Source of the DNA: Paracoccaceae bacterium
GTDB taxonomy: Bacteria; Pseudomonadota; Alphaproteobacteria; Rhodobacterales; Rhodobacteraceae
Direction: 5' to 3'
Assembly: GCA_007695345.1 (NCBI GenBank)
Contig: REDZ01000057.1
Coordinates: 1-49,577, forward strand
Length of the DNA stretch: 49,577 nucleotides
The notes below the pieces were generated by a model. That model saw only the letters and a list, made by a program, of their open reading frames with translations. It was not told the origin of the DNA and made no database searches. How positions within the stretch are numbered: the stretch's first letter is position 1; every line of letters begins with the position of its first letter. Positions 1,559 to 17,865 of this stretch are shown here, piece after piece. The translations under genes and the position numbers were made by a program.

Positions 1559-4500
1559 TCACTGCGCGGATGGCGCAGTCTCGAAATTCCATTGCAGCGT
1601 TTCGCCCAGCCGGTTGCCGTGCATGTCATGCAGCCCTTCGCGCAAAAGCAGGGTAAAGTGACTGCCGGGCGCAAGGGGTTCATCCGGCAGCAGGCTTACG
1701 CGGCGCTGACCCGGCAGATGCGAATAGTCCACTGCGACCGGCGTACCTGTCGCATCGATAAGGTGCAGATGCTCCTCCAGCATGTCGGTTGCAATATCAG
1801 TCGCAAAGCGCAGCGATGGCGCGATGTCTTGCGGCGCGTCCTGTGAATCCGGCAGGTCCACCGCGACGGGGGCGGGTGTGCGGCTCAGTTCCAGCGGGAT
1901 CACCTGTCGCGTCGCGTGCAGCCCGCCCTGCGCGGTGATGCGCAGATGCGGGCGCGGTCCGGGCTCCAGCCCGGCGGCGCGCAGCGTGACCGCGGGGATC
2001 GACTGAAACAGCGCAAGTGGCCGCCATGGTGCGGCACCAGTGGGCGAATATTCGACATCGAAGCTCACGGGCCCTGTGCCCTCACTCGACCAGCGGATAA
2101 TGTGCTCTTCCGTGTCGTCCAAAAGCAGGCTCTGTGCAGGGATCTCGAGTATGGGCGCGGTATCGGAAACCTCGATCATGGCAAGCTCGCGCGCGCCTTC
2201 GCGCAACCGCAGCGCCACGGCCTGCGGGTGCGGATCAATCGCGACCCGGAAATCGGGCCAGTGAAGGGGGGTGTCGCCCGCCGATCTGGCGCGGAGTCGA
2301 CCATGCATCGGGTGGATATCGGGTGCGCGCGTATCAAATGCCGTCGCGACCAGCACACGGCCTTGTGCATCCAGCAATTCTGCTTTGTACGGCCCCTGAT
2401 CATGCGTCGCGGGCGCAGAGCGGATGCGCAGCGGATCAAGGCTCGCACCCCCTTCCGGCGCGATCAGGCCGGTCAGGATAATCCTGTCCGCTGGGGGGCT
2501 TTGGGCATCGCTGAGGGTGCTTGGCGCGGCCTGCGCAGTGCGAATGGCTTGCTGGCGCAGCAGGGCGTCACGTTGGCCGAACCCGGCCTGAATGTCGGCC
2601 TGCATCAGCGCGTATTCGACCTGCGACACCCAGGCCCTGCGTGAGGGCTGGATGTCGGGCCACATCAGCGAGCGCAGGTAATCGGGATCTTCGGCATTGC
2701 CCTCGTGGTAGGATTTGTTCCAGCCCTGCAAGCCCGATGGCGCGAGCCTGAAACCATCAATCGTCGGGTAGCGGCGCCGCCCGGCATCAACCGTGCTTGG
2801 AAAATGCGGCAGCGAAAACACATGGCCGAACTCATGCACCAGCCCCGTTGCCAGTACATCTGCGTCAAGCACCGGATCGGCCTGAATCTCCATCGCTACA
2901 GCGCGCGCGCGGTAGTCGAGCACCCCCTTGAAGAGCCGAGCCTCGAGGTTGCTCAAGGCCATACCGACCGCCGTCTCGCCAAGTGCGTCGAAGGGGACGA
3001 CCACGACTGTGATATCCTCGGGGCCGACATGATCAGACGCCTGGCGCTGCAAGTGTCGCAGATAAGCGCCGAATATGATCGCGACCCGGTTATCTTCAAC
3101 CGCGTCGCCGCGGCCCGCTTCGTTCAGCAGCAACATGGCTCCGGCGAGGGGGTCGCCCATCGTGGCCAGGAACAGGCCGAAGCTGTTTGTGCCGAAATCG
3201 AGCGGGTGCGCCGTCGCCGCGCGGTGGGGCAGATACTGCGGCACATAGTGTTCCGTCCGCCAGAGGGTCTGCATGATTGCCTGACGGTCCGCGTCGGAAA
3301 TACCCCCTTCAATCTCGGCCCGCAGCTCCATGATCACCTGAAGTCGATCATGCAGTGTCTCGGCGACGTTATCGGGAATTCCGGCCATACGGTCGGCCAG
3401 ATCTCCCTCGTCGATGCGGCCGCGGAGAATATCCATCGCCAGAGCGGCAAGCGCGTCTCGGGTATCACGCGCCAATCCGGGCAGGACTGAGTCGAGCGCG
3501 GACAGCTCACGCAAAAACTGCTCTAATTCATTTGCCCAGGGGCCAATTTCCGCCACGGCAAAGTAAAAATCCAGATCGCCCGGGTCGTGGTCCCAGATAT
3601 CTATCGGGTGGTCCTGCCGCGTATTGGCCGACGACAGCGGGAAGGGGAACGGGGCGTTGGGGCAGGCGACAAGTTCCAGCGTATCCGCGCTGTCACGCTG
3701 CGGCAACCAGCCGAAAAAATTGACCGTGTGACGGGCGTTGCGGCGGTCTTCGTCACCAAAGGCGCGTTGCGGTTCAAGCCAGGCAAAGCGGTTGACGCGC
3801 GCACGCAGATCGCGCTGCGCCACGACGCGCGGGTGGCGTTCGGACAGCACCAACTCGAACTCGAACCGTTCGGGTTGCCAGGCGGGCGCGATGTCCTCAT
3901 GCGCACGCCAATCCGGCATAAGCCGCGTCATGGCGGGCTTGTCAAACACCAGATGCGGGTCGCGCACAGTCTGATAGATGCGCAGGTCCAGCGGATGGTC
4001 CTGATCGAGTGGTTGCTGTGCCTCCATATCCAGCAGCGTCGAGAAGCGCCAGCTATGGTCCTGCTCGAGAAAGGCATCCCAGTCCCGCGCCTGCACGCCG
4101 TCCTCGCCGCCGGCAAGCCGCACTTCGTAATAGGCGCCAGATCGCAGCGGCGCAGTCGGGCGGAACATGTATTCGTGCGGATCTTCATAATGGTCGAGTT
4201 GCGGAAACGGATGCGTGGCCAGCCCGTTCGTGTTGCGTGCCGAACACATCGCCGCGTCCGTAGCCTGTTCAATCAGTGCGGCCATTTCAGCGGCGTCATC
4301 GCGCCAGGCACCCGGGTAGTGCGAGAGGTGCCACTGGCCCGGAACCTCGACCCGCGCGCCTTGGGCATCGCGGGTGAACAGGGTGAAGTTGTTCGCCAGG
4401 CTGGCATGATCGACCGGCGCATCAAAGGTCAGTGTGATTGCCGGGTGCTGGGGGTTAACGTTGGCGCGCAGCGCCGATGGCGTGTGGTCGATCAGTTCCA

Positions 4501-5332
4501 GCGCGTCATATGCACAGGTATCGGGATTGGCAGCATGGGCCGCGGCCTCGCAGACCCAGCCGCGCACCCGCGCCGAGCGGCCGGTGGGATCCCGGTTTCC
4601 GCTGCTGAATTCCTGCACGAGCGCGCTGAACTGCATGCGATAGCCATGGCCCGAGCGGTCCACCCGCACCCGGCCGCCCTGCACCTCGGTATAGAGGTAG
4701 TCGCCTGTGAAATCGTCATCTGTCGTCTCGGAAAAGCTGCGCGCCGTCATGCCTTGCGGGGTTGCATAGCCCAGCACTCGGTCGGCCTGAAACAGGTGGT
4801 TGGCCAGTCCCGAAAACCCTGTGCCGCCGCCGGTCTGGCCATCACCTGCGCCCGAAAACTCAAGCCGCGCCATCGCGGGCGCGGCATCGGGGACAAAGGC
4901 AAACAAATGGAAGGGCCAGTCGCGCGCGTCTGTGTGAAGAAGCGCATAAAGTTGCCGTCCCGGTGCAATACCAAATGCCGATTGGTCCAGGACAGTAAGC
5001 GTACCACCGCCCGACAGCGTCTCATTCCAGCTTCCGCTGACCTTCATTTCCCAGACCACCTGCGCATGCGCCTCGAACGGGGTGGCGCCTGTGATCGCCT
5101 CGGTCACGGCGGAGGGCAGCGCGCCGGTCCAGTCAGTGCCGACAAAACCCTCGATAGTGCGGGCAAACCCCTCGGGCGAGGACAGGTCGAAATCGAATTG
5201 CGGCACTGGCAGATCGGGCAGGTCCGGCAACGCATTGATCTGCTCTTGCGGGATCTCCAGCGTCTCTTGCGCTGTGCCGGGACCAGCGGCAAGTGCCGCG
5301 ATTATCGTGTATGTCAGGGCACGCAGGATCAT
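1559..5332 (-). CDS. Exported zinc-metalloprotease-like protein with Ig-like domain (module B1)
   Basis: This 1257-residue protein starts with a signal peptide (residues 1-21, cleavage after GTAQ). Residues about 90-280 form a domain shared with the coiled-coil protein at 15722-16978, including C261-x11-C273. Residues about 290-432 look like a first Ig-like or SbsA-like segment. A zincin site HEFGHVFSLPH lies at 833-843 (HExxHxxxxxH), with Ser where metzincins have Gly, and SLMWP near 890 could be the Met-turn. Residues about 1155-1253 form a C-terminal Big_5/SbsA-type Ig-like domain. The gene starts 4 bp after the stop of the exported protein at 5337-6656, so the two are surely co-transcribed. 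It is probably a secreted or periplasmic protease; the substrate is unknown. The protease call rests on the motif alone. Confidence 0.85.
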   Translation of the reverse strand: MILRALTYTIIAALAAGPGTAQETLEIPQEQINALPDLPDLPVPQFDFDLSSPEGFARTIEGFVGTDWTGALPSAVTEAITGATPFEAHAQVVWEMKVSGSWNETLSGGGTLTVLDQSAFGIAPGRQLYALLHTDARDWPFHLFAFVPDAAPAMARLEFSGAGDGQTGGGTGFSGLANHLFQADRVLGYATPQGMTARSFSETTDDDFTGDYLYTEVQGGRVRVDRSGHGYRMQFSALVQEFSSGNRDPTGRSARVRGWVCEAAAHAANPDTCAYDALELIDHTPSALRANVNPQHPAITLTFDAPVDHASLANNFTLFTRDAQGARVEVPGQWHLSHYPGAWRDDAAEMAALIEQATDAAMCSARNTNGLATHPFPQLDHYEDPHEYMFRPTAPLRSGAYYEVRLAGGEDGVQARDWDAFLEQDHSWRFSTLLDMEAQQPLDQDHPLDLRIYQTVRDPHLVFDKPAMTRLMPDWRAHEDIAPAWQPERFEFELVLSERHPRVVAQRDLRARVNRFAWLEPQRAFGDEDRRNARHTVNFFGWLPQRDSADTLELVACPNAPFPFPLSSANTRQDHPIDIWDHDPGDLDFYFAVAEIGPWANELEQFLRELSALDSVLPGLARDTRDALAALAMDILRGRIDEGDLADRMAGIPDNVAETLHDRLQVIMELRAEIEGGISDADRQAIMQTLWRTEHYVPQYLPHRAATAHPLDFGTNSFGLFLATMGDPLAGAMLLLNEAGRGDAVEDNRVAIIFGAYLRHLQRQASDHVGPEDITVVVVPFDALGETAVGMALSNLEARLFKGVLDYRARAVAMEIQADPVLDADVLATGLVHEFGHVFSLPHFPSTVDAGRRRYPTIDGFRLAPSGLQGWNKSYHEGNAEDPDYLRSLMWPDIQPSRRAWVSQVEYALMQADIQAGFGQRDALLRQQAIRTAQAAPSTLSDAQSPPADRIILTGLIAPEGGASLDPLRIRSAPATHDQGPYKAELLDAQGRVLVATAFDTRAPDIHPMHGRLRARSAGDTPLHWPDFRVAIDPHPQAVALRLREGARELAMIEVSDTAPILEIPAQSLLLDDTEEHIIRWSSEGTGPVSFDVEYSPTGAAPWRPLALFQSIPAVTLRAAGLEPGPRPHLRITAQGGLHATRQVIPLELSRTPAPVAVDLPDSQDAPQDIAPSLRFATDIATDMLEEHLHLIDATGTPVAVDYSHLPGQRRVSLLPDEPLAPGSHFTLLLREGLHDMHGNRLGETLQWNFETAPSAQ

Positions 5333-5336
5333 CGCG

Positions 5337-6656
5337 TCATGGCCGATACGGCTCTTCTTCCTGCAAGGCCGTGTCGAACCGGCCCTCGACCGGCAGGCAA
5401 TCGCTCAGGTCAGGGCCATCCATGAGGCGCGCGCCCTCCATCCGGCACAGATTGCCCTGAAAGGTGCCTGTGGCATGGCCGTCTTCCGCCCCCAGATCCA
5501 GCCGCTCGAATATGACGCTGGCCTCGCCGCCGCCATCGCTCGAGGTATAGAAAACCGCCGGGATGAAGCTGCCAGATGCCTCGAGCACATAGGTGATATC
5601 GGCCTGCATCGGCTGGCCCAGCGGCGGTTCATCGCTGTAAAGATACACGTCAAGTGCAAGGGTCTGCTCGGTGAGGATATTGGGGCTGGCGGGGTCGTGG
5701 CCGCTGATGGTGAGGGTGATATGCTCAGTGCCGCCGACCGGCTCTCCGGTCAATTGCTCCAGCATACCAGCCATCGGATTATCGCCGCCGAAAAGGTCAT
5801 CCAGCATTCCGAGTTGTTCTCGTTCCTCTTCCGAGAGTTCATCGGAGATCGCACCGAACGTGTCGGAAAAGCCTGGAACCGATAACACCATGCGCTGAAA
5901 ATTGGCGCTGGCCCCTTGCTGGCCCCGGATGTCACCAGCGATGGTCAGCCATTCGCGTTCCTCGCCACCCAGCGTGGCATTCACGCGGCCCAGCACGTCC
6001 ATCGTGGCCGGGCCGTCTGCGGCGGGGGCCTCGGCCGCGGGCGCTTGGTCCGCACCAGGTTCGATCCGAACCGGAGGTGCGAAGGGCAGCAGCGCCGTGT
6101 CGAACTGAAAGGACATCTCGAAACAGCTGTCGGAGATCGGCTCGGTCTGCTCGGTTTCCATATCGTGGGGGCACATCATGCCGATCGCGACGCCCGCAAT
6201 ATGCGCAGCGCCTTCGGTCAGGTCCAGCGCAGTGAGCCGAAGATCGAGCGGCCCCGTGCTGGCAAAGATGCGCGCTGGATCTCGGGCACCGGCACCCCAT
6301 TCCATAACATAAAACATGCCGGCTTCATCTGCCGGGCTGTCGGCATCAAGCGGCGCGGGGGCGTCGAATTCAAGCTGGATCGCGGCCATGCCCTGCATCG
6401 GGTGGGCACCCGGTACCGCCTGCGCGGGCATCCCCTCGATCGAGATCATGCCGCCATCGCCGCCAAAATTCGTGCGATACCCGGCAAGCGAGCGGTGAAA
6501 CATATCGACCGGGCCTTCGAACACCTCGAGTTCTGTCAGGATGCCATCGATCTCGACGGTGACACTGCCCAGATCCTGACGCTCCAAAGCAGCAAGCGCG
6601 CTTGCGCAGGTCATTGCGCCAACCAGAAGAGGGATGAAAAGCCAATGTCCTTGCAT
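5337..6656 (-). CDS. Exported protein with two copies of a C-x15-C-x6-FDT domain (module A1)
   Basis: A 439-residue exported protein that matches no family I recognise. It has a signal peptide (residues 1-22) and a good GGGAGG Shine-Dalgarno upstream of the ATG at 6654-6656. Two halves look related: residues about 28-190 and 218-432. Each ends in two cysteines 16 residues apart followed by FDTAL (C162/C178 then FDTAL; C404/C420 then FDTAL). A short Ala/Pro/Glu linker (about 203-217) separates them. The second half aligns well with the single domain of the protein at 16975-17724 (shared words such as ADITYV, GRFDT). The next gene, encoding the protease-like B1, follows after 4 bp. Function is unknown; a periplasmic or surface partner or inhibitor of B1 is a guess. 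Confidence 0.85.
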   Translation of the reverse strand: MQGHWLFIPLLVGAMTCASALAALERQDLGSVTVEIDGILTELEVFEGPVDMFHRSLAGYRTNFGGDGGMISIEGMPAQAVPGAHPMQGMAAIQLEFDAPAPLDADSPADEAGMFYVMEWGAGARDPARIFASTGPLDLRLTALDLTEGAAHIAGVAIGMMCPHDMETEQTEPISDSCFEMSFQFDTALLPFAPPVRIEPGADQAPAAEAPAADGPATMDVLGRVNATLGGEEREWLTIAGDIRGQQGASANFQRMVLSVPGFSDTFGAISDELSEEEREQLGMLDDLFGGDNPMAGMLEQLTGEPVGGTEHITLTISGHDPASPNILTEQTLALDVYLYSDEPPLGQPMQADITYVLEASGSFIPAVFYTSSDGGGEASVIFERLDLGAEDGHATGTFQGNLCRMEGARLMDGPDLSDCLPVEGRFDTALQEEEPYRP

Positions 6657-6949
6657 TGTACAGCCTCCCGAAGCGGTGTGGGTCCGCAGAGGCGTACCAC
6701 AACAGCAGGATTATGTTAGCGCGATTGCAGCTGTCAACTGACCAAACAGATAGGTTCGCAGGCGTTGACAGACGCCAGCCGCCCGGATGAAGCGCATCTG
6801 CTCCTGACCGATTGCAACGCAGTGGGTGCGTGTCACATGTGCCGTGCCTGCCGTGACCCCACCACGTGCCAGGCGGGATATGACGGCACTGTCAGGCCAG
6901 TGTGTTGATCGCCGTCTTTTTCGGACAATTTGCGCCCCGCAGCGCATGG

Positions 6950-8185
6950 TCAGGTCGGCTGGTGCGGCCTTGCACTTTGCCCGGCTTCCAGAGCGCGCAG
7001 CATATGCGCATTGCGCGGGCAGAGCGGATACAGCATTGCCTGCAAGGAATGGTAGATGTCAGGTTTTCCGATGAACTGCTGCGCGCGCGGCTGCCCGTCC
7101 CGCCCGATCTCGGGGTACCAGCCGCCGCGCGCGTGATCGATGAAATGCGTCTGCGCGACGTCCCAGAGACGCAGGAACCAGTCTGAATCCGTGTCGCGCG
7201 GGTCGCATTTCATGAGCGCGGCCAGCGCGCCGATGCCTTCGGTGACGGGCCACCAGTAGCGATCGGGGCGCAGCACCTGACCCGTGCGGTCCACCGTGTA
7301 GGCCAGGCCACCATCAGCACGCCAGGCATCGCTCAGCGCTGTCTCGATGAGCGCCCGTGCAATCCGTGCAGTGTCGTCCTCCGCTTGGCCTGACAGGTCA
7401 CGATGCTGAAGGATCAGGCGCGCGCATTCCAGCGCATGACCGGGGGTCGTGCCCGCGGGGCGAAACATCGGGTTGCCCTCAAACCCGTGATCGATCGCCC
7501 ATTCCGCCGTGAAATGTTCGGGGATGCGCCAGCCATTTTCGGGCGCAAGCTGTGCGGTGAAAAACCGCAATATGCGCCCGGCGCGGTGCAGGAAAACCTC
7601 GCGCCCCGTCGCCTCATGGGCCGCCATCAGCGCCTCGGCCCCATGCATGTTTGCGTTCATGCCACGGTATTGAGAGATTACCGACCAGTCGCGGCCATAT
7701 TCCTCGCGCAGAAGGCCGCGCTCTTCATCCCAGAAATGCCGGTCGATGATCTGCCCGATATCCTGCATCAGGCGCGGCGCGTCCTCATGGCCGACGGCCA
7801 TCGCGCTGGATGCGGCCAGCAGCACAAAGACATGCCCGTATGCCAGCTTGGTCGTATCCTCGAAACCGTCAGCCGTGATCGACCAGGCGTACCCCCCGAA
7901 TTCCAGATCCCGATGCCGCGACCAGAGCGCGGCCAGACCTGCATCGATCATCGGCTGACAATCCATCTCGCCCCAGGCATGGGCCAGCGCATAGGAATGG
8001 ATCATGCGCGTGGTGACATGCAATTCCTGCGGGTGCCCCGGAATCGGGGCGCCGTGATGGTCCAGCAAGTCGAACCCACCCTGATCATTCAGCGACTGAC
8101 GGAAAAACGCGATCTGCGCGCGCGCATCTTCCGCGAAGGCGCGGCGCAGCGCAGGGTCATGGATCGGCACGTCTGGTCTGGTCAT
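6950..8185 (-). CDS. AGE-family sugar epimerase/isomerase (N-acylglucosamine 2-epimerase-like)
   Basis: A 411-residue cytoplasmic enzyme of the (alpha/alpha)6-barrel AGE/YihS superfamily, which interconverts aldoses and ketoses or C2 epimers such as mannose/fructose or N-acylglucosamine. Family-like segments carry histidines that would line the active site: NMHGAEALMAAH, EWAIDHGFEGNP and GKPDIYHSLQAMLYP. Length is normal for the family. The start at 8183-8185 is chosen because GGGAGG precedes it; in-frame codons further upstream lack a ribosome site. It is divergent from the FAH-family gene at 8551. The substrate is not determined; mannose or a related hexose is plausible. Confidence 0.88.
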   Translation of the reverse strand: MTRPDVPIHDPALRRAFAEDARAQIAFFRQSLNDQGGFDLLDHHGAPIPGHPQELHVTTRMIHSYALAHAWGEMDCQPMIDAGLAALWSRHRDLEFGGYAWSITADGFEDTTKLAYGHVFVLLAASSAMAVGHEDAPRLMQDIGQIIDRHFWDEERGLLREEYGRDWSVISQYRGMNANMHGAEALMAAHEATGREVFLHRAGRILRFFTAQLAPENGWRIPEHFTAEWAIDHGFEGNPMFRPAGTTPGHALECARLILQHRDLSGQAEDDTARIARALIETALSDAWRADGGLAYTVDRTGQVLRPDRYWWPVTEGIGALAALMKCDPRDTDSDWFLRLWDVAQTHFIDHARGGWYPEIGRDGQPRAQQFIGKPDIYHSLQAMLYPLCPRNAHMLRALEAGQSARPHQPT

Positions 8186-8550
8186 CTCTGCTCCCTCCCC
8201 CTCTTCCTGCGGTCCGGACGCCATCGACACGCAGCACATTGCCCGCGCATATGCCGACGCCTCGCATGCCAGATAGAGCACAGCGTCCGTGACATCGTCC
8301 AGTTCAACGGCGCAGCCCTGTATTGTCCTTGCCTTGATCGAGCGGCCATCCTTCGGGGGCTGGTCGGGGTCGGGATGGTATGTTTGAGTATTTTTGGCAA
8401 GATGAAATCAGACGCGGTGTGCGGCGGCCGTGTCGCCAGGCTGCCATGGGACAGTCTCGGACATCTTGGCTTGCCCACGCGCATCAGGTATCGCGCAAGC
8501 GCCGTTCATGGCGGGAGTGCGGCACCTCTACTGAAAGGAAATTCCAAATC
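8186..8550. other. Intergenic region between divergent epimerase and FAH-family genes
   Basis: No gene is convincing in these 365 bp; possible frames lack ribosome sites and family-like composition. The region must hold promoters for both flanking genes. An AT-rich stretch at 8381-8408 (starting TGTTTGAGTATTTTTGG) stands out from the GC-rich background; it could be a promoter or a dispersed intergenic motif. Confidence 0.5.
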
Positions 8551-9258
8551 ATGAGACGCGTGACGGTAAAACCCGATTTCGTCATCGCGCCCCCGGCGCA
8601 GGTCAGCCTGCCGATCCGGGGCAGTGACAAACGCTTTCCTGTGCACCGCGTCTATTGCATCGGCCGCAACTACGCGGCCCATGCCGTGGAGATGGGGCAT
8701 GACCCCGACAAGGAGCCGCCCTTCTTCTTTCAGAAGAACCCGGACAACCTGTTCGCCGACCCGGATGTGTTTCCGTATCCTGACCGCAGCAAGGATGTGC
8801 ATTTCGAGATCGAGATGGTCGTGGCATTGTCGGGTGGTGGCAAGGATATCCCCGGTGAAACGGCCAATGAACTGATCTGGGGATATGGCGTCGGGCTGGA
8901 TATGACCCGGCGCGACCTGCAGGGCGAGGCGAAGAAGATGGGCCGTCCCTGGGAGGTCGGCAAGGCATTCGAGGGGTCGGCCCCCTGTACGGCACTGGTC
9001 CCGGCGGCGGAGATCGGCCACCCGACCGAGGGCGCGATCTGGCTGACGGTCAATGGCGAGATCCGCCAGCAAGGCGATCTGAACCAGATGATCTGGAAGA
9101 CACCTGAATTGATCGCAGTGCTGTCGCAGTATTTCGAGTTGAAACCCGGCGATATCATCATGACCGGCACGCCCTCTGGTGTCGGCGCGATCCAGCGCGG
9201 CGACGTGATGGAGGGCCATGTGGACGGGATCGGCGATCTGAAGATCACGGTTCGCTGA
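8551..9258 (+). CDS. Fumarylacetoacetate hydrolase-family protein (fumarylpyruvate hydrolase-like)
   Basis: A 235-residue hydrolase of the FAH superfamily, at the short-form length seen in fumarylpyruvate hydrolases and acylpyruvases. It carries the expected signatures: VYCIGRNYAAHAVEMG near residue 31, FFFQKNPDNL, the metal-binding E-x-E in HFEIEMVVAL, GYGVGLDMTRRDLQ, and the C-terminal KPGDIIMTGTPSGVGA. These enzymes cleave C-C bonds in 2,4-dioxo acids using Mg or Mn. The start at 8551 follows AAAGGAAA. A second, longer FAH member lies at 22837-23688 in an L-fucose-type operon; this one stands alone, so its substrate is open. Confidence 0.9.
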   Translation: MRRVTVKPDFVIAPPAQVSLPIRGSDKRFPVHRVYCIGRNYAAHAVEMGHDPDKEPPFFFQKNPDNLFADPDVFPYPDRSKDVHFEIEMVVALSGGGKDIPGETANELIWGYGVGLDMTRRDLQGEAKKMGRPWEVGKAFEGSAPCTALVPAAEIGHPTEGAIWLTVNGEIRQQGDLNQMIWKTPELIAVLSQYFELKPGDIIMTGTPSGVGAIQRGDVMEGHVDGIGDLKITVR

Positions 9259-9280
9259 CACAGGCTGCGCCTGCAGTGTC
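9257..9280 (+). terminator. Possible weak terminator hairpin after the FAH-family gene
   Basis: GACAC at 9257-9261 pairs with GTGTC at 9276-9280, with an additional short GC pairing inside, overlapping the stop codon. A short T-run (GTTT) follows. It could act as a weak intrinsic terminator. Confidence 0.3.
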
Positions 9281-9397
9281 GTTTCCGACCGTCCCGGGAT
9301 ATGACTGCCCACGACGGACTTCAACAGGTGCCGTCAAGCCGGTATCCTGTGGCCTGTACATTGCCATGCGGGTCAGCGGGTCAGACGGCACGGCCCC

Positions 9398-9869: not shown

Positions 9870-9985
9870 AGGGATGAGTTACGCGCCATGCAACATGGCA
9901 TCAAAAATTTAGCCAGTGAGCTAAGTGAATGCAGCGGCAGCGTTGCCTCATGAAGTCAGACCTTGATTATCGGCAATTTTTACGC

Positions 9986-10002
9986 TATTTCATGTCGAAA
10001 TA
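9986..10002. promoter_or_regulatory. Candidate operator of the toxin-antitoxin operon
   Basis: A perfect inverted repeat, TATTTC (9986-9991) and GAAATA (9997-10002) with 5 bp between, lies 19 bp before the antitoxin start. Antitoxins of this class usually repress their own operon, and the position fits. No binding data; inferred from symmetry. Confidence 0.45.
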
Positions 10003-10020
10003 ACCGTTGAGGTCCATGCC

Positions 10021-10371
10021 ATGCAGATCGCGAATTTTGCCGAAGGCGGACAATTCGAGCCGCGCAAGATTGCCGCCGCCCTGCGCACCTCTGCCGAAGA
10101 GGTCGCCATGAGTGTCGGGCTGGGCAAGGACGCGCTGCAGCGCCGCACGCGGATCAGCTCGGACAAGACTCAGCGCCGCCTGCGCGAGTTGGTGGAGATT
10201 CTGAACAAGGTGGAACCGCGTTTCGGGTCCGAACTCATGGCCTATGCCTGGTACCGGTCAGAGCCGCTGCCCGGCTTTGACGGGCGCACGGCGATGCAGC
10301 TTGTACAGGATGGCAAGGCGCAGCAAGTGCTGGAATATATCGACGCGGTCGATGCGGGCGTCTTTGCCTGA
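10021..10371 (+). CDS. Xre/MbcA/ParS-type antitoxin (DUF2384)
   Basis: A 116-residue DNA-binding antitoxin. The middle contains a Xre-like helix-turn-helix region (about residues 15-50, KIAAALRTSAEEVAMSVGLGKDAL), and the C-terminal half has the MbcA/ParS toxin-binding domain features (LVEILNKVEPRFGS, then AWYRSEPLPGFDGRTAMQLVQDGKAQQVLEYIDAVDAGVFA). GAGG lies just upstream of the ATG. Its stop overlaps the toxin start (TGATG), the usual antitoxin-first arrangement of RES/Xre modules, in which it should neutralise the RES protein and autoregulate through the upstream palindrome. Confidence 0.92.
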   Translation: MQIANFAEGGQFEPRKIAAALRTSAEEVAMSVGLGKDALQRRTRISSDKTQRRLRELVEILNKVEPRFGSELMAYAWYRSEPLPGFDGRTAMQLVQDGKAQQVLEYIDAVDAGVFA

Positions 10372-10883
10372 TGGTCTTGACTGACGGGCGCTATGCAGGG
10401 CCGCTATACCGCGCCCTGAACCCGGTTTATGCCCGCGACCCCCTATCCGGGCGCGGTGCGGGCCTGTATGGCGGGCGGTTCAACCCAAAGGGGGTCCATG
10501 CACTGTATACCGCGCTCGATCCGGCCACCGCCCTGCGAGAGGCCAATCAGGTCGGAAGTCTGCAGCCCACGGTTCTGATGTCCTACAGGGCCGACATCGG
10601 CCCTATTTTTGACACGCGCGACGCGGCAGCGCTTGATCGCTACGCGCTCTCTCCCGCAATACTGGCCGATCCCGGCTGGCGCGCGACGATGCTGGGGGGT
10701 GGGCGGCCCCCGACGCAGGACGTCGCGCAGGCACTGATTGCTGCCGGGTTCGCAGGCCTGCTGACCGGCAGTTTCGCGAAGGGGGCGGGCACGCGGAGCC
10801 TGAATATCGTTCTGTGGCGATGGACGGGTCGGGGCTATGCGCTGGAGGTGGTGGATGATGAAGACCGGCTGGGTCGGATGTAG
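10371..10883 (+). CDS. RES-domain toxin
   Basis: A 170-residue RES-family toxin. Members of this family degrade NAD+ or ADP-ribosylate targets and arrest growth. The sequence shows the conserved features: YRALNP near the N-terminus, GRGAGLYGGRFNPKGVHALYTALDPATALREA with the invariant Arg and Glu positions, and a C-terminal GAGTRSLNIVLW segment. It starts at 10371, overlapping the antitoxin stop by one base, so the two genes are translationally coupled. It appears intact. Confidence 0.92.
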   Translation: MVLTDGRYAGPLYRALNPVYARDPLSGRGAGLYGGRFNPKGVHALYTALDPATALREANQVGSLQPTVLMSYRADIGPIFDTRDAAALDRYALSPAILADPGWRATMLGGGRPPTQDVAQALIAAGFAGLLTGSFAKGAGTRSLNIVLWRWTGRGYALEVVDDEDRLGRM

Positions 10884-11146
10884 CGGCTTATGTCAGCGCG
10901 GGGGATGCCTAGCGCCGCAGGCCAGACATCTCCGTATCCGGGGGCAGTGACCAGCGCCCTGACCCAGCTGCGGCAAGGATCAGGCAGCCCCCGGCACTGC
11001 CTGTTCATTGATCGCAGAGCTTACGCCAGCGGGAACGGACAGAACAGGCATGACCGATGCGGCCTGAAGGGCCATGTTCGAACCGCGGAGCGGACGAATA
11101 TGGCCATGCGCGCATGGACTTTCATCCCCCGCGGTCAATATGACAT

Positions 11147-11809
11147 ATGAACCACCAACGCAGCGAGACACGATTGGGACTGACTTACGGGTATGAATCG
11201 CGCCGTCCTGACCCATGCAGCGCCATCGTGACACCGTCGCGCCCTGTGCAGGACATTCTGGACCGCGTGCGCGCCGCGATCACGGAACCCGCTGTCTCGG
11301 TGGGGTCTCTGGTGCGTGCGATGGATGCCCCTGCGCAGACGATTTTCCTGTTGCTGCCTGCGCTGATCCTGATCACACCGCTGAGCGGTATCCCCGGCAT
11401 GTCATCGCTGGGTGGCCTGACGATTGCACTGGTGGCCTTGCAAATCCTGCTGGGCCGATCCGCGATCTGGTTGCCCGGCTTTGTCCTGCGCCGCCAGATA
11501 TCCGCAGAGCGCCTGAGCCGGGCGCTTGACCGGCTGGCCCGGCCCGCCGCCTTCATCGACCGCAAGATGGCAGCACGGGCGGCGTGGGTGGTGGCCTTTC
11601 CCTTTCGCCAGATCGCACTGGCGCTCTGCATGCTGTGCGGGATGTCGATGCCGTTTCTGGAACTGGTGCCGTTTTCCGCGACGATCCTTGCGTTGGTCGT
11701 CAGCATTCTGGCCTCGGCGCTGCTGGTGCGCGACGGGCTTATGCTCGCCTTTGGTCTTGGCGGGTTCGGGCTGGCCATCCTTGTCGTCGCGCGGCTTGCA
11801 ACCAGTTAA
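11147..11809 (+). CDS. ExoD-family membrane protein (exopolysaccharide synthesis-related)
   Basis: A 220-residue integral membrane protein resembling ExoD. From residue about 32 the sequence has the family pattern: VGSLVRAMDAPAQTIFLLLPALILITPLSGIPGMS, then LTIALVALQILLGR and WLPGF, followed by further hydrophobic segments at about 150-185 and 195-217. ExoD is linked to exopolysaccharide production and alkaline tolerance in rhizobia; its molecular activity is unclear. The start at 11147 lacks a clear ribosome site, so the first 25-30 residues (rich in Arg and Pro) may not belong to the protein. It stands alone between the toxin-antitoxin pair and the VTC/CotH operon. Confidence 0.8.
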   Translation: MNHQRSETRLGLTYGYESRRPDPCSAIVTPSRPVQDILDRVRAAITEPAVSVGSLVRAMDAPAQTIFLLLPALILITPLSGIPGMSSLGGLTIALVALQILLGRSAIWLPGFVLRRQISAERLSRALDRLARPAAFIDRKMAARAAWVVAFPFRQIALALCMLCGMSMPFLELVPFSATILALVVSILASALLVRDGLMLAFGLGGFGLAILVVARLATS

Positions 11810-12100
11810 GTCACCCGACAGGCGCCTCCGGCACTGCGATCGCGTCCGACGCCAACCAATTCGATATCCGAGATCACAGATGATGCGTACGGAAACGTTC
11901 AATGGACTGACAAGTGTGCATGACAGGGCATTTTGCACCGCTCTCGCTATGCGAGCGGCGCTGCAGGCGCTTCCCCTTCTTGCAAAGGGTTGACTGACAC
12001 ATGATATCACGCGAACCATTCAGGATGACAATAATCAACTGCAGATCAGCTTCGGCGGCCCGGCGTCAACCTGCTCGGGACGGCCACGTGACACACGCCC

Positions 12101-12742
12101 ATGTCAGCTGATCTGCTGTTTCTTGCCAGAGACCTTGCGCTGAATCTGATCGCCATCAGTATTCTGGCGTTCGGCTTGTATTTCACAAGATACCATCGCC
12201 GTGACTACGCAGTGGGCTTCATCGCGATCAATTTCAGTCTGTTCGTGGTCGCGTCCGTTCTGACGGCATCCTCCGAATTCACCATCGGTGTCGGCTTTGC
12301 CCTGTTTGCAATCCTGTCCATCGTCCGCCTGCGATCGGATGAGGCGACCTGGATCGAGATCGGCTATACCATGGTCGCCCTGGTGCTTGGACTGGTCAAC
12401 GGCTTGCCCGGTCCGTCATTCGAGATGAAACTGCTGCTGTCCGGGGTGCTTCTGGCGGCGATGTTTGTCGCGGATCACTTTGCGCTGCTGTCGCCTGCGC
12501 GCCATCAGCGCTGCCGGGTCATTTTAGAAAGCATTGTGCTGGATCGCAAGCAGCTAAACGATCTGGTCGGCCAAAGGCTGGGCGGGACCGTCCGGCATCT
12601 GTCGATCATCGAAGTGGATCATGTGACCGAAAAGATGCGTCTGGATGTCCGATACACAGCGGACCAGCCATCACCGCCAGGCGCCGATACCCAGACCGAA
12701 GATACAGAGCGCCCACCGCAGACGCGAAGGGAGCCGACATGA
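12101..12742 (+). CDS. DUF4956 membrane protein
   Basis: A 213-residue protein with four predicted membrane helices in the first about 140 residues (LALNLIAISILAFGLYF, YAVGFIAINFSLFVVASVL, GVGFALFAILSIVRLRSDE, then ALVLGLVNG and LLLSGVLLAAMFVA). The FAILSIVRLRSD stretch after the second pair is characteristic of DUF4956. A soluble C-terminal part (about 141-213) faces the cytoplasm and becomes charged and Pro-rich. It is first in an operon with a VTC-domain gene (overlap of 4 bp) and a CotH-kinase gene. The same three-gene set is, to my knowledge, recurrent in bacteria. Molecular function is unknown. Confidence 0.87.
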   Translation: MSADLLFLARDLALNLIAISILAFGLYFTRYHRRDYAVGFIAINFSLFVVASVLTASSEFTIGVGFALFAILSIVRLRSDEATWIEIGYTMVALVLGLVNGLPGPSFEMKLLLSGVLLAAMFVADHFALLSPARHQRCRVILESIVLDRKQLNDLVGQRLGGTVRHLSIIEVDHVTEKMRLDVRYTADQPSPPGADTQTEDTERPPQTRREPT

Positions 12743-13602
12743 ATGTGGCCAGCCCCGGCATCGGAACCAGCCCACGCGACATGCTGCACGCGTGTGTCGC
12801 CGATCTGCATGGCGCGACCCTGGATGAGTGCAGCACACTTCCGACAAGCCGGTTCGACAGCAAATTCGTGGCCCAGGTCAGCGCATTGGGCGCACTGGTG
12901 CAGACATTGCATGCCTCCAGTTCAGGGGGGCAGTCATGGCGGGTGCTCGAGGTCGAACACCATAGGATCGTACAGTATCAGACCGCCTATTTCGACACGC
13001 CATGCCTGCAGCTTTATCGCGACCATCTGCAGGGGCGACGCCGGCGTTTCAAGATCAGGACGCGCCGCTACAGCACCGGGGCCCATGTGCTCGAGATAAA
13101 ACTCAAGGGTATTTGTGGAAAAACCGAAAAACTGCGCCGCACCCGCGCAAATGGCGCGCGCAGAATGGTGCTGGATCATGCCGAACACGACTGGCTGCTG
13201 GACAGCTTGCAAACGCAATTCGCGTACCCTGCGCCACTGGAACTGTCGCCGTCGGCGCAGACATTCTACAGGCGTATCTGCCTTGTGGGACCGGATGACG
13301 ACCGTCTGACCATCGATCTGGATTTCGCGGTTGCGCAAGGCTGTAACAGCCCCCAAGGCGCAGCGGATCAGCAGATCGCTGTCAATCCCGATCTGGCTAT
13401 CGTCGAAAGCAAGTCATCGCGGATGCGCACGGACCTCGACAGGCAACTCAGGCAGATCGCCAGGCACCCTGACCAGCTGAGCAAATATGCCATTGCACTG
13501 GCGATGACCCGCGGGGTTCGCTGCAACCCATGGCTTCCGGCGCTGCGAAGACTGAATGGAGAACCTGCCGCTGATCGCCATGGCATGCGCGGCCATGTCT
13601 GA
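12739..13602 (+). CDS. VTC-domain protein (polyphosphate polymerase-like)
   Basis: A 287-residue protein with the VTC/CYTH-type tunnel fold, which in yeast Vtc4 makes polyphosphate from ATP. Basic and acidic tunnel residues are visible in alternating strands: SRFDSKFVAQ (about 37-46), YFDTPCLQLYRDHLQGRRRRFKIRTRRY (about 84-111), EIKLKG (about 118-123), and ESKSSRMRTDLDRQ with the late Glu and Lys (about 224-237). Length is typical for bacterial members. The start ATG overlaps the DUF4956 stop by 4 bp (ATGA). Coupling to a membrane protein and a CotH kinase suggests a phosphate-transfer process at the envelope; the actual product is inferred from the family only. Confidence 0.9.
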   Translation: MNVASPGIGTSPRDMLHACVADLHGATLDECSTLPTSRFDSKFVAQVSALGALVQTLHASSSGGQSWRVLEVEHHRIVQYQTAYFDTPCLQLYRDHLQGRRRRFKIRTRRYSTGAHVLEIKLKGICGKTEKLRRTRANGARRMVLDHAEHDWLLDSLQTQFAYPAPLELSPSAQTFYRRICLVGPDDDRLTIDLDFAVAQGCNSPQGAADQQIAVNPDLAIVESKSSRMRTDLDRQLRQIARHPDQLSKYAIALAMTRGVRCNPWLPALRRLNGEPAADRHGMRGHV

Positions 13603-15670
13603 CGCGGTCGCACATGACAGACTGACGAACGCAGCCTGGCCGTGGCCGGTTTCACCGACTGCAAAGCTTGCGGTGCTGGTTGCGGCGGTGCTGGGCGCAC
13701 CCTCGCTCGCCAGTGCAGAGGGCGCGGCAGACCCTCAGCTTGCCTGCCCGGAAGGTGCGGCCAGCGTTCCGCCCCCGCGCTTTTCCATGCGCAGCGGGTT
13801 CCATGACACGCCCTTCCATCTGACGATCAGCGCCCTTCATGACACGCCCATATTCTACACACTCGACGGGTCACTACCGGATGTGACGGACACATCAGGT
13901 GCAACATCGCGCTACCGCGGCCCCATCGCGATTACCGACCGCACGGGCACCGCGCACAGGCTGGCCGATATCGACACGACATCCGTGGGCCGCACCCCGT
14001 TCTTCGATGATCCGGCACGGGCAGAGGATTTCCAGATGCCCGACCTCTCCGATACGGTGCTTGAACAGGCGACCGTCATTCGTGCGCGAACCCCGTGCAG
14101 CGCCACGGCCAGCGCGTCCTATTTCATTGGCAGCGACAGGGTCCGCGACGGTTTGCCGGTTCTCTCGCTTGTCACGGACCCGGACGGGCTGATGGACCAT
14201 GACGACGGGATCTATGTCGCGGGCCGGTTGCTTGAAGACTCCGTGCAGAGCCCGGATTTCGACCCGGATGACTGGATCATCTCGAATTACAGCCAGCGCG
14301 GTCGCGACTGGGAACGCCGCGTCGGGTTCGATTTCTGCGCACCGGGCGGCGAATGCATTTACAGCCGCGATGCAGGCGTGCGCGTGCATGGTCGATACAG
14401 CCGATCCTTTCCGCAGAAATCCCTGCGCCTCTATGCCCGAAACGACTATGGGGATCGCCGGTTCAGGGCAAATTTTTTCTTCAACGACACCCCGACACCG
14501 CTGGGTCATCGTCGGCTGATCCTGCGGAATTCGGGAAACGACAATCCACATATGATGCTGGCCGACGGGTTTCTGCAATCGCTCATGACCGGCCTGATAG
14601 CGGATACGCAGGCCTATCAGCCTGTCGTCGTCTTCATCAATGGGGAATACTGGGGGATCCAGAATATCCGCGAACGCTATGACCGGCACTATCTGGAACT
14701 GGTGCATGGCGCTGATCCCGACGAAGTGGAGTTGCTCAACAACTCCGGGTCAACAGACGGGCAGCCCCCCGACCTTGTTGACGCATGGCACCAGACATTG
14801 GAGGATGTCAGTCGGCTTCGTCCGGATGATCCACGGTTCGCGGAACAGGCCGACGCACGGCTTGATATCGGCAGCTTCCTTGATTTCATCATCGCGCATG
14901 TGTTTGTCGGCAATGCCGACTGGGTGTCGAACAATGTGCGCTGGTGGCGGGCACCAAAGCAGTCCGAAACGCCCGTTGCCGGGGTTCATGATAACCGCTG
15001 GCGCTGGCTGATCAGCGATTTCGATCAATGGGGCGGGGGTGTGGGTGATCCCGCTTTCGACAATTTCGCCCACCGGCTTGCGCCGACGGATGACCCGCAT
15101 GTCCGCGATGGATTTCCGTTTCTGTTTCATCGCATCATGTCAAATGACGCATTGCGGGCACGGTTCCTCAATCGCTTTGCCGATCTGATGAATTCAACGC
15201 TGCATCCCGATGTGACGCTTCAAAGGCTGGACGGCGCAGTCGCGCGGATCGCGCCCGAAATTCCGCGCCACCTGGCGCGCTGGCGGCCAGACCGCGAAAT
15301 AGAGCATTGGCACGCGGATACAGATCGTCTTGCCCGTTTCCTGCGCGCACGTCCGGCCCATCAGTTCGATCAGCTTGTCGAGGCGTTTTCGCTTGCCGGA
15401 ACCGGCAAGGTCAGTATCGCGACCCCCGAGGCCGCGCGCGGAACAGTGCGGGTCAACACCATAAGCCTGCCTGACCGGGCGCATGGCAGCGCCGACAAGT
15501 GGCGTGGCAGATATTTTCTGGATGTTCCTGTCACGGTTGAGGCGCGCGCCGCAAAGGGGTATCGCTTTGCGGGGTGGACTGGACTGGAAACAGACGCTGA
15601 CACCCCTGTCATCACGGTGTTTCCAGATGCACAGCCTGTCACGCTTCGCCCGCAATTTCTGGCCGAGTGA
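13556..15670 (+). CDS. Exported CotH-kinase-family protein with flanking accessory domains
   Basis: A 704-residue protein as read from the ATG at 13556. A later ATG at 13595 would overlap the VTC gene by only 8 bp and put the signal peptide (LAVLVAAVLGAPSLASA) nearer the N-terminus; neither start has a strong ribosome site. Residues about 85-125 form a chitobiase/hexosaminidase C-terminal-like domain (FHLTISALHDTPIFYTLDGS). CotH kinase features follow: VHGRYSRSFPQKSLRLYAR (277-295), INGEYWGIQNIRERYD (361-376) and ISDFDQWGGG (486-495). The last about 75 residues resemble an InlB-type B repeat (GYRFAGWTG). CotH kinases phosphorylate exported proteins in spore formers; here the target is unknown. 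It is convergent with module B2. Confidence 0.9.
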   Translation: MENLPLIAMACAAMSDAVAHDRLTNAAWPWPVSPTAKLAVLVAAVLGAPSLASAEGAADPQLACPEGAASVPPPRFSMRSGFHDTPFHLTISALHDTPIFYTLDGSLPDVTDTSGATSRYRGPIAITDRTGTAHRLADIDTTSVGRTPFFDDPARAEDFQMPDLSDTVLEQATVIRARTPCSATASASYFIGSDRVRDGLPVLSLVTDPDGLMDHDDGIYVAGRLLEDSVQSPDFDPDDWIISNYSQRGRDWERRVGFDFCAPGGECIYSRDAGVRVHGRYSRSFPQKSLRLYARNDYGDRRFRANFFFNDTPTPLGHRRLILRNSGNDNPHMMLADGFLQSLMTGLIADTQAYQPVVVFINGEYWGIQNIRERYDRHYLELVHGADPDEVELLNNSGSTDGQPPDLVDAWHQTLEDVSRLRPDDPRFAEQADARLDIGSFLDFIIAHVFVGNADWVSNNVRWWRAPKQSETPVAGVHDNRWRWLISDFDQWGGGVGDPAFDNFAHRLAPTDDPHVRDGFPFLFHRIMSNDALRARFLNRFADLMNSTLHPDVTLQRLDGAVARIAPEIPRHLARWRPDREIEHWHADTDRLARFLRARPAHQFDQLVEAFSLAGTGKVSIATPEAARGTVRVNTISLPDRAHGSADKWRGRYFLDVPVTVEARAAKGYRFAGWTGLETDADTPVITVFPDAQPVTLRPQFLAE

Positions 15671-15721
15671 GTGGCGCCACGGGCGCATTTGAACAAATGC
15701 CGAAATCAGGCACCGGGCAGA

Positions 15722-16978
15722 TCAACGCAGGTTGACCATTGCTTCGCGTCTCAGGGCTTCGGCATATCTTGTGGCCGCGTTGACATATCGGCTGGCGCCG
15801 GTGCCGGGCGAGATCGTCATCTCGTGTTCGGCATGACGCAACTCGACCTCTGCCAATTGCCGTTCCAGCACCACTTGAGCCTCGCGCATCGCCTCGTCCC
15901 GAAGACGGCGGGCACGTTCCAGCGTTTCCAGTCTTTCGAGTTCAGCCTCCATCTGACGTTCTGCGCGTTCAACTTGCTGACGGACCAGGCTTTCGATTTC
16001 GGCCTGCCGGCGCTCCATGTCGGCTCTTCTGGAAAGCTCCCGCACTCTCTGCTCGGCGCGCCGTGCTGCGTCCTCTGCCTCGGTTATGGCCCTTTCCAGC
16101 TCGGCCTCATACTCGGTCAGCCAATCGGCGCAAACGGCAGGAGAGGCTGCATGAAGCGCTGACGGGCAGAACTGCACATCGATCAGCCCAATCCGGCCGG
16201 TCGGGCGGGGGATGATGTCACCCGACATGCCGTCATATTCCCCGACAACTGCACGAACATGCATCAACGGCCCTTCGGCAAACCGCAGACTGGCATAAAA
16301 GCTGCCGTGATCGACCAGCGTATAGGGACCGTCGAAGGGGCTGTCCGCGTCGATATCGGACCAGTCCAGCCCGATCATCTGCCGCCCGTCAAAGCGGTCC
16401 GGGCGGAACATGTGCAGCGCAGCAGCCCCAAAGGCGGCGGTCAGGGGCTGGTTGCGCAGGTCCGGCGGGTTGCCAAGGGCAGAGGCAAGCTGGCTGATCA
16501 GCGGGTAGCGGATGATCCCGCCATCATCAGGAATGCGCGTGGCAAAGACCCATGGATAGGCATAGCCTGGCAGGTGGATGTTGATGCGGTGCAGGCTGGT
16601 GCCGTCCTGAAAGGGCATGATCAGGTTGCGCGCCGTGCCCTCATGCTCCAGCGACCAGTCGCCGCTGACCCGCACGCTGACCTGCATCTCTTCGCGAAAC
16701 AGCTCTGGCATGACGCTTGGGTCCACACCCATGGCAGTGAATGCGTCGATATTGTCCAGATGCACGCCCTCGTCAAAGGCATCCGAAATGCTGTCGATCG
16801 TGTCCAGCAGGCCATCGAGTGTGAAGATATCCGCACCGCTGATGTCGATCGGGGGGCGGGGCGGGGGCAGGTTCTCCAGGGCCGTGTCGGGCAGGGTAAA
16901 GCTAGGGCGATCCTGCGCCTGTGCAGGCACAGCCAGCCCCGCCGCGAGCAGCAGGGCCAGGGCGAGGGCACGCGTCAT
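15722..16978 (-). CDS. Exported protein with B1-like N-terminal domain and C-terminal coiled coil (module B2)
   Basis: A 418-residue exported protein with a signal peptide (1-21, ending PAQAQ). Residues about 98-290 resemble the N-terminal domain of the protease-like protein at 1559-5332: V-x-VSG-x-W, YPWVFA-x-x-IPDD against WPFHLFAFVPDA, HMFRPDR against HLFQADR, and two cysteines with identical spacing (C271-x11-C283). Instead of a protease, residues about 287-385 form a long charged coiled coil (Glu, Arg, Ala heptads), ending in a short tail. The start overlaps the stop of the A2 gene (ATGA). It is convergent with the CotH kinase gene at 15670, leaving 51 bp between. No family is recognised. 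Confidence 0.85.
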   Translation of the reverse strand: MTRALALALLLAAGLAVPAQAQDRPSFTLPDTALENLPPPRPPIDISGADIFTLDGLLDTIDSISDAFDEGVHLDNIDAFTAMGVDPSVMPELFREEMQVSVRVSGDWSLEHEGTARNLIMPFQDGTSLHRINIHLPGYAYPWVFATRIPDDGGIIRYPLISQLASALGNPPDLRNQPLTAAFGAAALHMFRPDRFDGRQMIGLDWSDIDADSPFDGPYTLVDHGSFYASLRFAEGPLMHVRAVVGEYDGMSGDIIPRPTGRIGLIDVQFCPSALHAASPAVCADWLTEYEAELERAITEAEDAARRAEQRVRELSRRADMERRQAEIESLVRQQVERAERQMEAELERLETLERARRLRDEAMREAQVVLERQLAEVELRHAEHEMTISPGTGASRYVNAATRYAEALRREAMVNLR

Positions 16979-17724
16979 GCGCCGTCGGCCATCAATTCGG
17001 TGTCAAACCGCCCGTCTATAGCACGGCAATCATCGGGGTCTTCGGTGATCTGCATGCCCTGCATCTCGACCCGGCACAGCGTGCTGGAGAACCGGCCCGT
17101 TGCCCGCCCGAACGGGCTGTCGAAGCTGAGCACATCGAATATCAGCTCTCCATCGCCACGCGCATCGCTGGAATACAGGACCGAGGGCAGGCCGCCCGTG
17201 CTTTCCTCAACATATGTGATGTCGGCCTCGACGGGCTGGCCCAGCAGATCGGTCCAGTCCTCGGGCGTCAGGTTGAAGCCTGCGGGCGCAAGGATCAGAA
17301 CACCCTCGGTCAGCAGCGCGGGGTTTTCGGGGTCATGGGCCTGAACCGTGATCGACACTTCTGCCGCGAGATCGTCCAGCACGCTGGATTGGATCTGGGC
17401 CATCTGCGCCTGCATCATCTCGATCATGGCGCGTTCCTCGTCCGAAAGCGTGTCCGGATCGACGCCCAGATCGTCGAAACCGGGCTGGTCTGGCAGGACC
17501 GAAGTGTCAAATCCGGACCAATAGGCGGTCGCCATGGCCTCGCGTGCAGTATCAGCGGGCGAATGAAAGGTCAGCCATTGCCGCTCGGACCCGTCAAAGA
17601 CCGCAGTGACCTCGCCCAGCACCTCGACATCTGTCGGAAACCCCTCGGAATGGGCCGCGCCGGTGAAAACGCAGGCGCAGATCAATATGGCGAGGGTGCG
17701 TGGATTGAGAATGAGGTTGGGCAT
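16975..17724 (-). CDS. Exported protein with one C-x15-C-x6-FDT domain (module A2)
   Basis: A 249-residue exported protein with a signal peptide (about 1-22, LAILICACVFTGAAHS). The start at 17722-17724 is chosen for its AGGAG and because the signal peptide begins there; a longer upstream reading has no ribosome site and would run through the hairpin repeat. The whole mature part aligns with residues 218-432 of the protein at 5337-6656: VLGEV-x-A-x-x-x-G-x-E-R-x-WLT, LSDEERAMIEMM, ADITYVEES, and C-x15-C-x6-FDTEL. Its stop overlaps the B2 start (ATGA), so the pair is translationally coupled exactly as in A1/B1. Function unknown. Confidence 0.85.
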   Translation of the reverse strand: MPNLILNPRTLAILICACVFTGAAHSEGFPTDVEVLGEVTAVFDGSERQWLTFHSPADTAREAMATAYWSGFDTSVLPDQPGFDDLGVDPDTLSDEERAMIEMMQAQMAQIQSSVLDDLAAEVSITVQAHDPENPALLTEGVLILAPAGFNLTPEDWTDLLGQPVEADITYVEESTGGLPSVLYSSDARGDGELIFDVLSFDSPFGRATGRFSSTLCRVEMQGMQITEDPDDCRAIDGRFDTELMADGA

Positions 17725-17865
17725 CGGGCGCTCCTGCAAGGTCGGGATGGGATCGGTATAGCACGCGATCGCAGCGTTGCCCCCTGTGTTTGAACGGGTG
17801 TCGGCGCGGCGCGGCATTTTTTGCAGAAGCGACAGTATGCGTCGTTGGTTAGTCCCGCCGCGCGG

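Follow-up and report, generated by a model that had tools for sequence, protein, structure and literature searches.

The window analysed here, a stretch of 49,577 bp from a Paracoccaceae bacterium (contig REDZ01000057.1, positions 1 to 49,577, assembly GCA_007695345.1), carries on one strand two gene pairs, A1/B1 and A2/B2 (Table 1), in each of which a small exported-looking protein (A) is encoded directly upstream of a larger one (B). We propose, tentatively and with slightly less than even confidence, that A and B are transcribed together and exported as a pair, that A serves the front module of B as its dedicated partner in export or assembly, and that the payload behind that module is exchangeable. 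Both members of the pairs are homologous between the two copies, the layout is operon-like, A and B co-occur in other genomes, A tracks the front module of B, and at one locus the payload differs in place. The term exported refers throughout to N-terminal hydrophobic segments of the A and B proteins judged by eye; those of A1 and A2 could be cleaved or kept. The four open reading frames (ORFs) have the coordinates, strand and coupling reported in a preliminary description of this DNA: the A1 stop codon and the B1 start codon are separated by a gap of 4 bp, and A2 and B2 overlap by 4 bp.

Homology of the two gene pairs

A2 aligns with residues 216-431 of A1 at 37% identity (BLAST E-value 9e-35), in agreement with the earlier observation that it corresponds to the second half of A1. 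The first half of A1 also proved to be an A domain, though a diverged one (hhalign probability 96.0%, E-value 3.8e-09; top shuffles 0.2%), and every A domain of the window contains a pair of cysteines spaced 16 residues apart. The N-terminal regions of B1 and B2, whose domains we call type 1, are related according to BLAST (E-value 8e-07, 27% identity) and hhalign (92.9%, E-value 3.8e-07), and most clearly when a profile of nine type-1 domains is used in hhalign (98.4%, E-value 1e-14; 50 column shuffles reached at most 1.8%), although a plain hidden Markov model built from seven type-1 domains scores B2 weakly (E-value 0.0055). The full-length peptidase B protein of locus L079 (L and G numbers are our handles for loci and genomes), from another family, matches the B2 profile over both N-terminal parts (E-value 5e-16) and thus provides an independent bridge between B1 and B2. 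In both B1 and B2, two cysteines spaced by 12 residues also lie close to where the N-terminal domain ends. Profile comparison therefore bears out the relationship between the B proteins that the preliminary description had claimed, and similarity was found for A1/A2 as well as for B1/B2. A test for distant kinship of A with the N-terminal domain of B found none (hhalign 0.2% and 1.3%).

No Pfam family was matched by full-length A1 or A2, nor by any of ten A C-domain rows at E-values up to 1, and A had no sequence match in the PDB. A fold search with the A2 model returned 0 matches at E<=0.001, the model itself being poor (predicted local distance difference test score, pLDDT, 59.4). A Rhodobacteraceae metagenome-assembled genome (PWWF01000048) shows 85% identity over A2.

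Table 1. Coordinates of the A and B genes and of their domains and motifs in the window.
Feature	Position	Strand	Remarks
A1	5337..6656	(-)	439 amino acids (aa); exported-looking; two A domains, homologous halves (hhalign)
A1 N-terminal A domain, diverged	6057..6593, borders approximate	(-)	Cys 162/178; hhalign against A C-domain profile
A1 C-terminal A domain	5364..6011	(-)	Cys 404/420; aligns with A2
B1	1559..5332	(-)	1257 aa; large, exported-looking; putative zinc metallopeptidase
B1 type-1 N-terminal domain	4547..5260	(-)	homologous to B2 counterpart (hhalign)
B1 zinc motif HEFGHVFSLPH	2804..2836	(-)	residues 833-843; H833, E834, H837, H843 invariant in 13-row alignment
B1 Met890	2663..2665	(-)	candidate Met-turn of a metzincin (putative role); invariant column
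B1 C-terminal Big_5 Ig-like domain	1577..1834	(-)	residues 1167-1252; Pfam PF13205, E-value 2.9e-13 for the protein
A2	16975..17724	(-)	249 aa; exported-looking; single A domain
B2	15722..16978	(-)	418 aa; type-1 N-terminal domain and long charged helix, no peptidase
B2 N-terminal domain	16124..16912	(-)	residues ~23-285; Cys 271/283
B2 E/R-rich helix	15812..16141	(-)	residues ~280-389; helix in AlphaFold2 model

The B proteins as putative metzincin-type peptidases

Apart from B2, the B proteins are very probably metzincin-type zinc peptidases of no assigned family, judging from their motifs. Every one of the 21 distinct B loci encodes the pattern HExxHxxxxxH, its usual Gly position being occupied by Ser or Ala in some of them (Ser in B1), and the methionine that follows the motif (M890 in B1) is invariant among the 13 aligned proteins; a fixed pattern for the Met region matched three of the nine rows tried, and among the misses L080 shows, by eye, a similar PLMWP. 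A Big_5 domain was found in all 13 B proteins scanned, B1 included. Reprolysin_5 was matched weakly by six of these 13 (best E-value 1.4e-4), and B1 itself matched no archaemetzincin, reprolysin or matrixin family at E-values up to 0.1 and gave 10.5 bits against Peptidase M66 (Pfam PF10462), below the curated cut-off of 20.6. In the motif region the B-core profile reached archaemetzincin (E-value 1.2e-4) and, more weakly, chains of ADAM proteins and of matrix metalloproteinases; it also picked up TssM chains over the Ig-like part (E-value 0.0016), and some of its weak rows are plainly chance. B thus resembles archaemetzincins, reprolysins and matrixins in the zinc-motif region, to which the alignments are mostly confined.

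Before its peptidase region, B1 contains an insert of about 75 residues (window 3305-3529, approximate) that is missing from the 12 other alignment rows. The B gene on a Qingshengfaniella plasmid (L082 3983-7757, identical to L088) consists of two overlapping frames of 761 and 509 codons, which are annotated as two proteins.

The partner gene follows the N-terminal type of B

Because B queries alone recovered the 21 distinct B loci, the frequency of an adjacent A gene is free of bias from searching for A; two of these loci (L041 and L081) lie too near a contig end for the upstream gene to be viewed. A is encoded directly upstream in 13 of the 19 B loci with visible upstream DNA (B1 of the window, L042, L048, L049, L050 (= L087), L051, L052, L053, L079, L080, L082 (= L088), L089 and L100). 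In the 14 A-B pairs measured, the spacing lies between -20 and +82 bp (start codons chosen by eye). Sorted by the N-terminal domain of B, A is present directly upstream in nine of nine type-1 loci, in four of four visible type-2 loci, and next to both B2 genes. Other N-terminal types go with other arrangements. The type of L043/L044 and that of L045 have A in none of three loci, and the type shared by L046, L047 and L101 has no A but, in two of three cases (L047 and L101), an unrelated small exported-looking protein directly upstream, separated by a 48-bp gap in one and overlapping by 4 bp in the other; these two proteins are 35% identical to each other (E-value 1e-33). Neither A nor another small partner was found at L043-L046, which all belong to genome G050. 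The partner thus tracks the N-terminal type of B and not the peptidase, although a single genome supplies five of the six loci lacking A.

That genome, G050, carries six B-like genes (L042-L047), of which one has A beside it and the remaining five span three N-terminal kinds. Kinship between type-1 and type-2 N-terminal domains is not apparent from sequence (0.6%), though both have a G-x-W by eye. On a plasmid of Roseinatronobacter sp. S2 (L087, 1526-10823) the type-2 genes stand in a longer, operon-like row that encodes a LuxR-type regulator, a membrane protein, a VWA protein, a weakly SH3-like protein, A and B; plasmids of Maritalea and Martelella carry this row up to A, and G1096 (L100) has it from the membrane protein onward. 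The Croceibacterium type-2 row has a Yip1 protein and no VWA protein.

Probable exchange of the region behind the front module

The identity of A proteins was compared with that of each part of B by Mantel tests on nine type-1 loci (36 pairs each, 28 for the C-terminus). The identity of A rises with that of the N-terminal domain (rho 0.80, p 0.0006), of Big_5 (rho 0.88, p 0.0004) and of the middle of B (rho 0.66, p 0.0008); the values for the peptidase (rho 0.27, p 0.07) and the C-terminus (rho 0.06, p 0.36) are lower, and within B the N-terminal domain and the peptidase give rho 0.33 (p 0.04).

The clearest single case is the pair L053 and L049, the DNA of which is 83.7% identical across the greater part of A, the N-terminal domain and Big_5, and 72.4% identical beyond the end of B, whereas the peptidase and C-terminus show no DNA match; at the protein level the A domains are 97% identical and the peptidase regions 31%. 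The peptidase and C-terminal part of L053 is nearest, over most alignment windows, to that of L042 from another family, and the gene that follows B, encoding about 350 aa without a Pfam match (L049 5082-6146, L053 2981-4036), is kept despite the differing peptidases. This looks like a replacement inside an orthologous locus, of which either L053 or L049 may be the recipient. B1 and L048, which are 56% identical in the N-terminal domain and 35% in the peptidase, suggest a second case, L049 and L052 reaching 47% in the peptidase.

B2, a B protein without a peptidase

The helix of B2 contains 25 Glu and 20 Arg within 110 residues and is modelled by AlphaFold2 as a block with pLDDT 75-90 from model residue 271 on, the N-terminal part being mostly below 50. 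Among 60 relatives, full-length matches to B2 were obtained only in the window genome and its sister species G001; G022 matches weakly and over residues 3-41 only (E-value 0.0099), and no relatives of B2 were matched on plasmids. G001 has kept the region that runs from the end of CotH across B2 and A2 into the genes beyond; its contig stops inside CotH, so that VTC is out of view. The low ratios of nonsynonymous to synonymous substitution rates against the sister species, 0.19-0.23 for A2 and 0.22-0.26 for B2, indicate that both genes are under purifying selection. Among the window ORFs of at least 80 codons, none other than B1 matched the B core, and no peptidase remnant was found near B2. 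The preliminary description had B rebuilt into a protease in one copy; this is the less likely course, the peptidase form being common and B2 the exception. Because the peptidase form occurs at 21 loci and full-length B2 is restricted, among the 60 relatives, to this genome and G001, it is more likely that B was stripped in one copy than that it was rebuilt into a protease in the other.

Organisation of the window and origin of the two copies

The two pairs lie about 10 kb apart and flank, as described earlier, a VTC/CotH locus, with VTC, CotH and DUF4956 genes between A1/B1 and A2/B2. An Xre-family antitoxin and a RES-domain toxin are also encoded between the two operons (window 10021-10883). 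A dispersed repeat of about 64 bp occurs at 17863-17924, immediately upstream of A2, and in the opposite orientation at 24626-24689; both copies match a single stretch of a sister-species contig. The search of neighbouring genes covered flanks of a few kb and all other A-B loci but L100 and L101. The association with VTC and CotH looks incidental, because VTC and DUF4956 relatives were not seen near the other A-B loci searched and CotH only in sister species G001.

In the A tree, A2 groups with the A proteins of L042 and L079, which come from two other families (forks 91/87 and 90/89, below the level that the tool marks with a star), and the nearest relative of A1 is L048 (70% identity). The deepest split of this tree has low support (45/54), and the N-terminal-domain tree gives B2 no firm position. 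The ancient operon duplication invoked by the preliminary description is therefore retained as an old homology of the two copies, its placement in this genome being unsupported by the A tree; the copies look like old lineages that have come to lie near each other. That they arose by duplication in this genome around VTC/CotH is very improbable: their proximity and common strand would fit such an event, but A2 groups with A proteins of other families and not with A1, and the other A-B loci searched have no VTC or DUF4956 relative nearby, CotH being shared with the sister species only. The weak root split of the A tree limits this case.

Proposed role of A and alternative explanations

According to the mechanism that we favour, B would be a carrier with a constant front (the N-terminal domain plus Big_5) and an exchangeable rear, normally a metzincin-type peptidase with presumed protease activity. 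From a shared transcript, A would be made first, enter the periplasm and bind the N-terminal domain of B, and may then hold or present B for folding, retention or release, probably via type II secretion. The long charged helix would be the payload of B2, which would make A2/B2 a non-proteolytic member of the carrier system. The type II secretin GspD, the only component searched for, is encoded in this genome (413.9 bits against a cut-off of 351.35). In a wider and more doubtful version, A and the B N-terminal domain would be an all-purpose exported carrier unit behind which recombination swaps the payload, be it different metzincins or a long helix. In this architecture, which would resemble that of polymorphic toxins, the small partner would belong to the carrier and not to the payload, and each N-terminal type would have an unrelated partner of its own.

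Several findings weigh against this mechanism. The models of A2 (pLDDT 59.4) and of the N-terminal part of B2 (mostly below 50) are poor. The contrast between N-terminal types is not independent, since L043-L046, the loci with neither partner, all belong to one genome; the agreement of A with the part of B next to it could stem from tight linkage alone; and the clear payload difference is one case, with a second only suggested. Separation of A from B, which the preliminary description had named as evidence against a system if common, was seen in part: six of 19 B loci are without A, A stands without B in four plasmid settings (L086/L094, L090, L092 and L093; flanks of 6-8 kb, shorter where a record ends), and a different operon contains a diverged A-like domain, next to which all six loci examined encode a DUF3179 protein and five of them a Cys-rich protein (both counts include the query locus). 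The four plasmid settings are not independent of one another, because L093 has a neighbour gene in common with the Pseudosulfitobacter records, of which 30 are listed by organism name; L086 and L094, the two viewed, have A without B. Overall, 16 of 20 A loci (type-1, type-2, B2 and plasmid loci, with the diverged A-like domains omitted) adjoin B or its N-terminal domain.

On a Martelella plasmid (L091, 6398-7934) the gene after A encodes the B N-terminal domain alone (215 residues) and is followed by an IS5 transposase. At L005 (8170-10866) the diverged A-like domain is part of a three-gene unit encoding a Cys-rich protein, a single A-like domain and a DUF3179 protein.

Because A follows the N-terminal domain and survives where there is no peptidase, a role in export or assembly is favoured over inhibition of the active site. 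We regard it as unlikely that A acts as a dedicated inhibitor or protector, occupying the catalytic domain of B in the periplasm until B is released, as proposed for AprI and BamI. Such a function would suit the conserved cysteine pair of A and the fact that A, small and exported-looking, is encoded immediately before a metzincin-like peptidase; in bamI-mep72, which is arranged in a similar way, BamI is reported to complex the metzincin Mep72 and relieve its toxicity (PMC4334185). Yet A2 is retained beside the peptidase-less B2, L053 and L049 combine nearly identical A domains with peptidase regions that are mostly different, several peptidase paralogues do without A, and A has no Pfam family in either the C-domain rows or the full-length proteins. 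We also regard as improbable an architectural function, in which a beta-rich A and an Ig-like, helical B would be structural parts of an envelope or matrix assembly, the peptidase being one surface function of it and A2/B2 entirely structural. The Big_5 domain of all scanned B proteins, the charged helix of B2 and the membrane, VWA and weakly SH3-like proteins of the type-2 operons are in line with this possibility, against which the conservation of the zinc motif at all 21 B loci suggests that catalysis matters.

Linkage might also account for the association, A and B being co-transcribed and co-inherited without interacting physically. The correlation with A is indeed lowest for the parts of B farthest from it, and orphan A genes exist; but adjacency is kept across families and on plasmids, A is missing or a different small gene takes its place where the N-terminal type is another (much of this contrast stems from one genome), and the A and B profiles match the same three genomes. 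The matching downstream flank of L053 limits an account by linkage alone without removing it, and we consider this account, too, to have a low probability.

Distribution

As a single query, B1 found matches in eight of 60 relatives and in two of 198 genomes of the family. The class-, phylum-, order- and genus-scale searches scored few candidates per genome (at class scale, three for B and eight for A), so that their counts are lower bounds: the B-core profile matched at least three of 385 class, two of 398 phylum and three of 390 order genomes, G000 being included in each count, and the A profile at least 12 of 37 genus genomes and three of 376 class genomes. At class scale both profiles found G000, G050 and G389, in samples (376 genomes for A, 385 for B) that were not matched genome by genome. 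Within the genus, the nine strong A matches (E-value <1e-40) all adjoin B or B2, and five other listed matches are diverged A-like single domains (E-values 2.8e-8 to 4.8e-4). Viral contigs yielded no relatives of A or of the B core, and PADLOC gave no match for the four window proteins. The survey of co-occurrence and adjacency suggested in the preliminary description thus shows an A-B linkage that recurs across genera and families.

Relation to known systems

A and the N-terminal domain of B, two exported-looking families that Pfam does not cover, are tied to an unassigned metzincin-like family of the Alphaproteobacteria, several members of which are plasmid-borne. Literature searches turned up analogues and no description that we recognised of the A and B families, which leaves part of the earlier statement that no such system has been described: the families appear undescribed, and the layout of a small partner beside a metzincin is known from Mep72/BamI and CpaA/CpaB. 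If the partner does belong to the carrier and not to the enzyme, reading such operons as an inhibitor next to a protease would fail here, and A2/B2 would be a natural enzyme-free pair for probing the interaction of A with the N-terminal domain.

Among the closest parallels is Mep72/BamI of P. aeruginosa (PMC4334185), a two-gene operon in which a small-protein gene stands beside that of a metzincin reported to be secreted by the type II (Xcp) pathway, with which its product forms a complex; the position of A directly upstream on the same strand, in 13 of 19 B loci, is alike. In the features compared, A differs in having no Pfam match, in following the N-terminal domain and in persisting without a peptidase, and B in its layout, with its own N-terminal domain, Big_5 and 1257 aa in B1. 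CpaA/CpaB and the chaperone pairs of type II secretion (PMC4713064) share the dedicated adjacent partner needed for metallopeptidase export, CpaA not being secreted without CpaB; A, however, is encoded upstream and has no Pfam match, whereas the gene for CpaB lies downstream and its product combines an SRPBCC-like domain with an N-terminal helix predicted to span the membrane. In Listeria a secreted metzincin is likewise paired with a putative inhibitor (PMC8235301), but that pair is phage-derived and Gram-positive, and the partner is described as a TIMP-like lipoprotein. Polymorphic toxin systems (PMC3482391) resemble the B proteins in that C-terminal parts recombine behind a kept front, of which L053 and L049 offer one clear case. 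They differ in the small gene: A tracks the N-terminal part of B and not the exchanged tip, and is therefore not immunity-like, and the two loci likewise share the gene after B although their tips differ.

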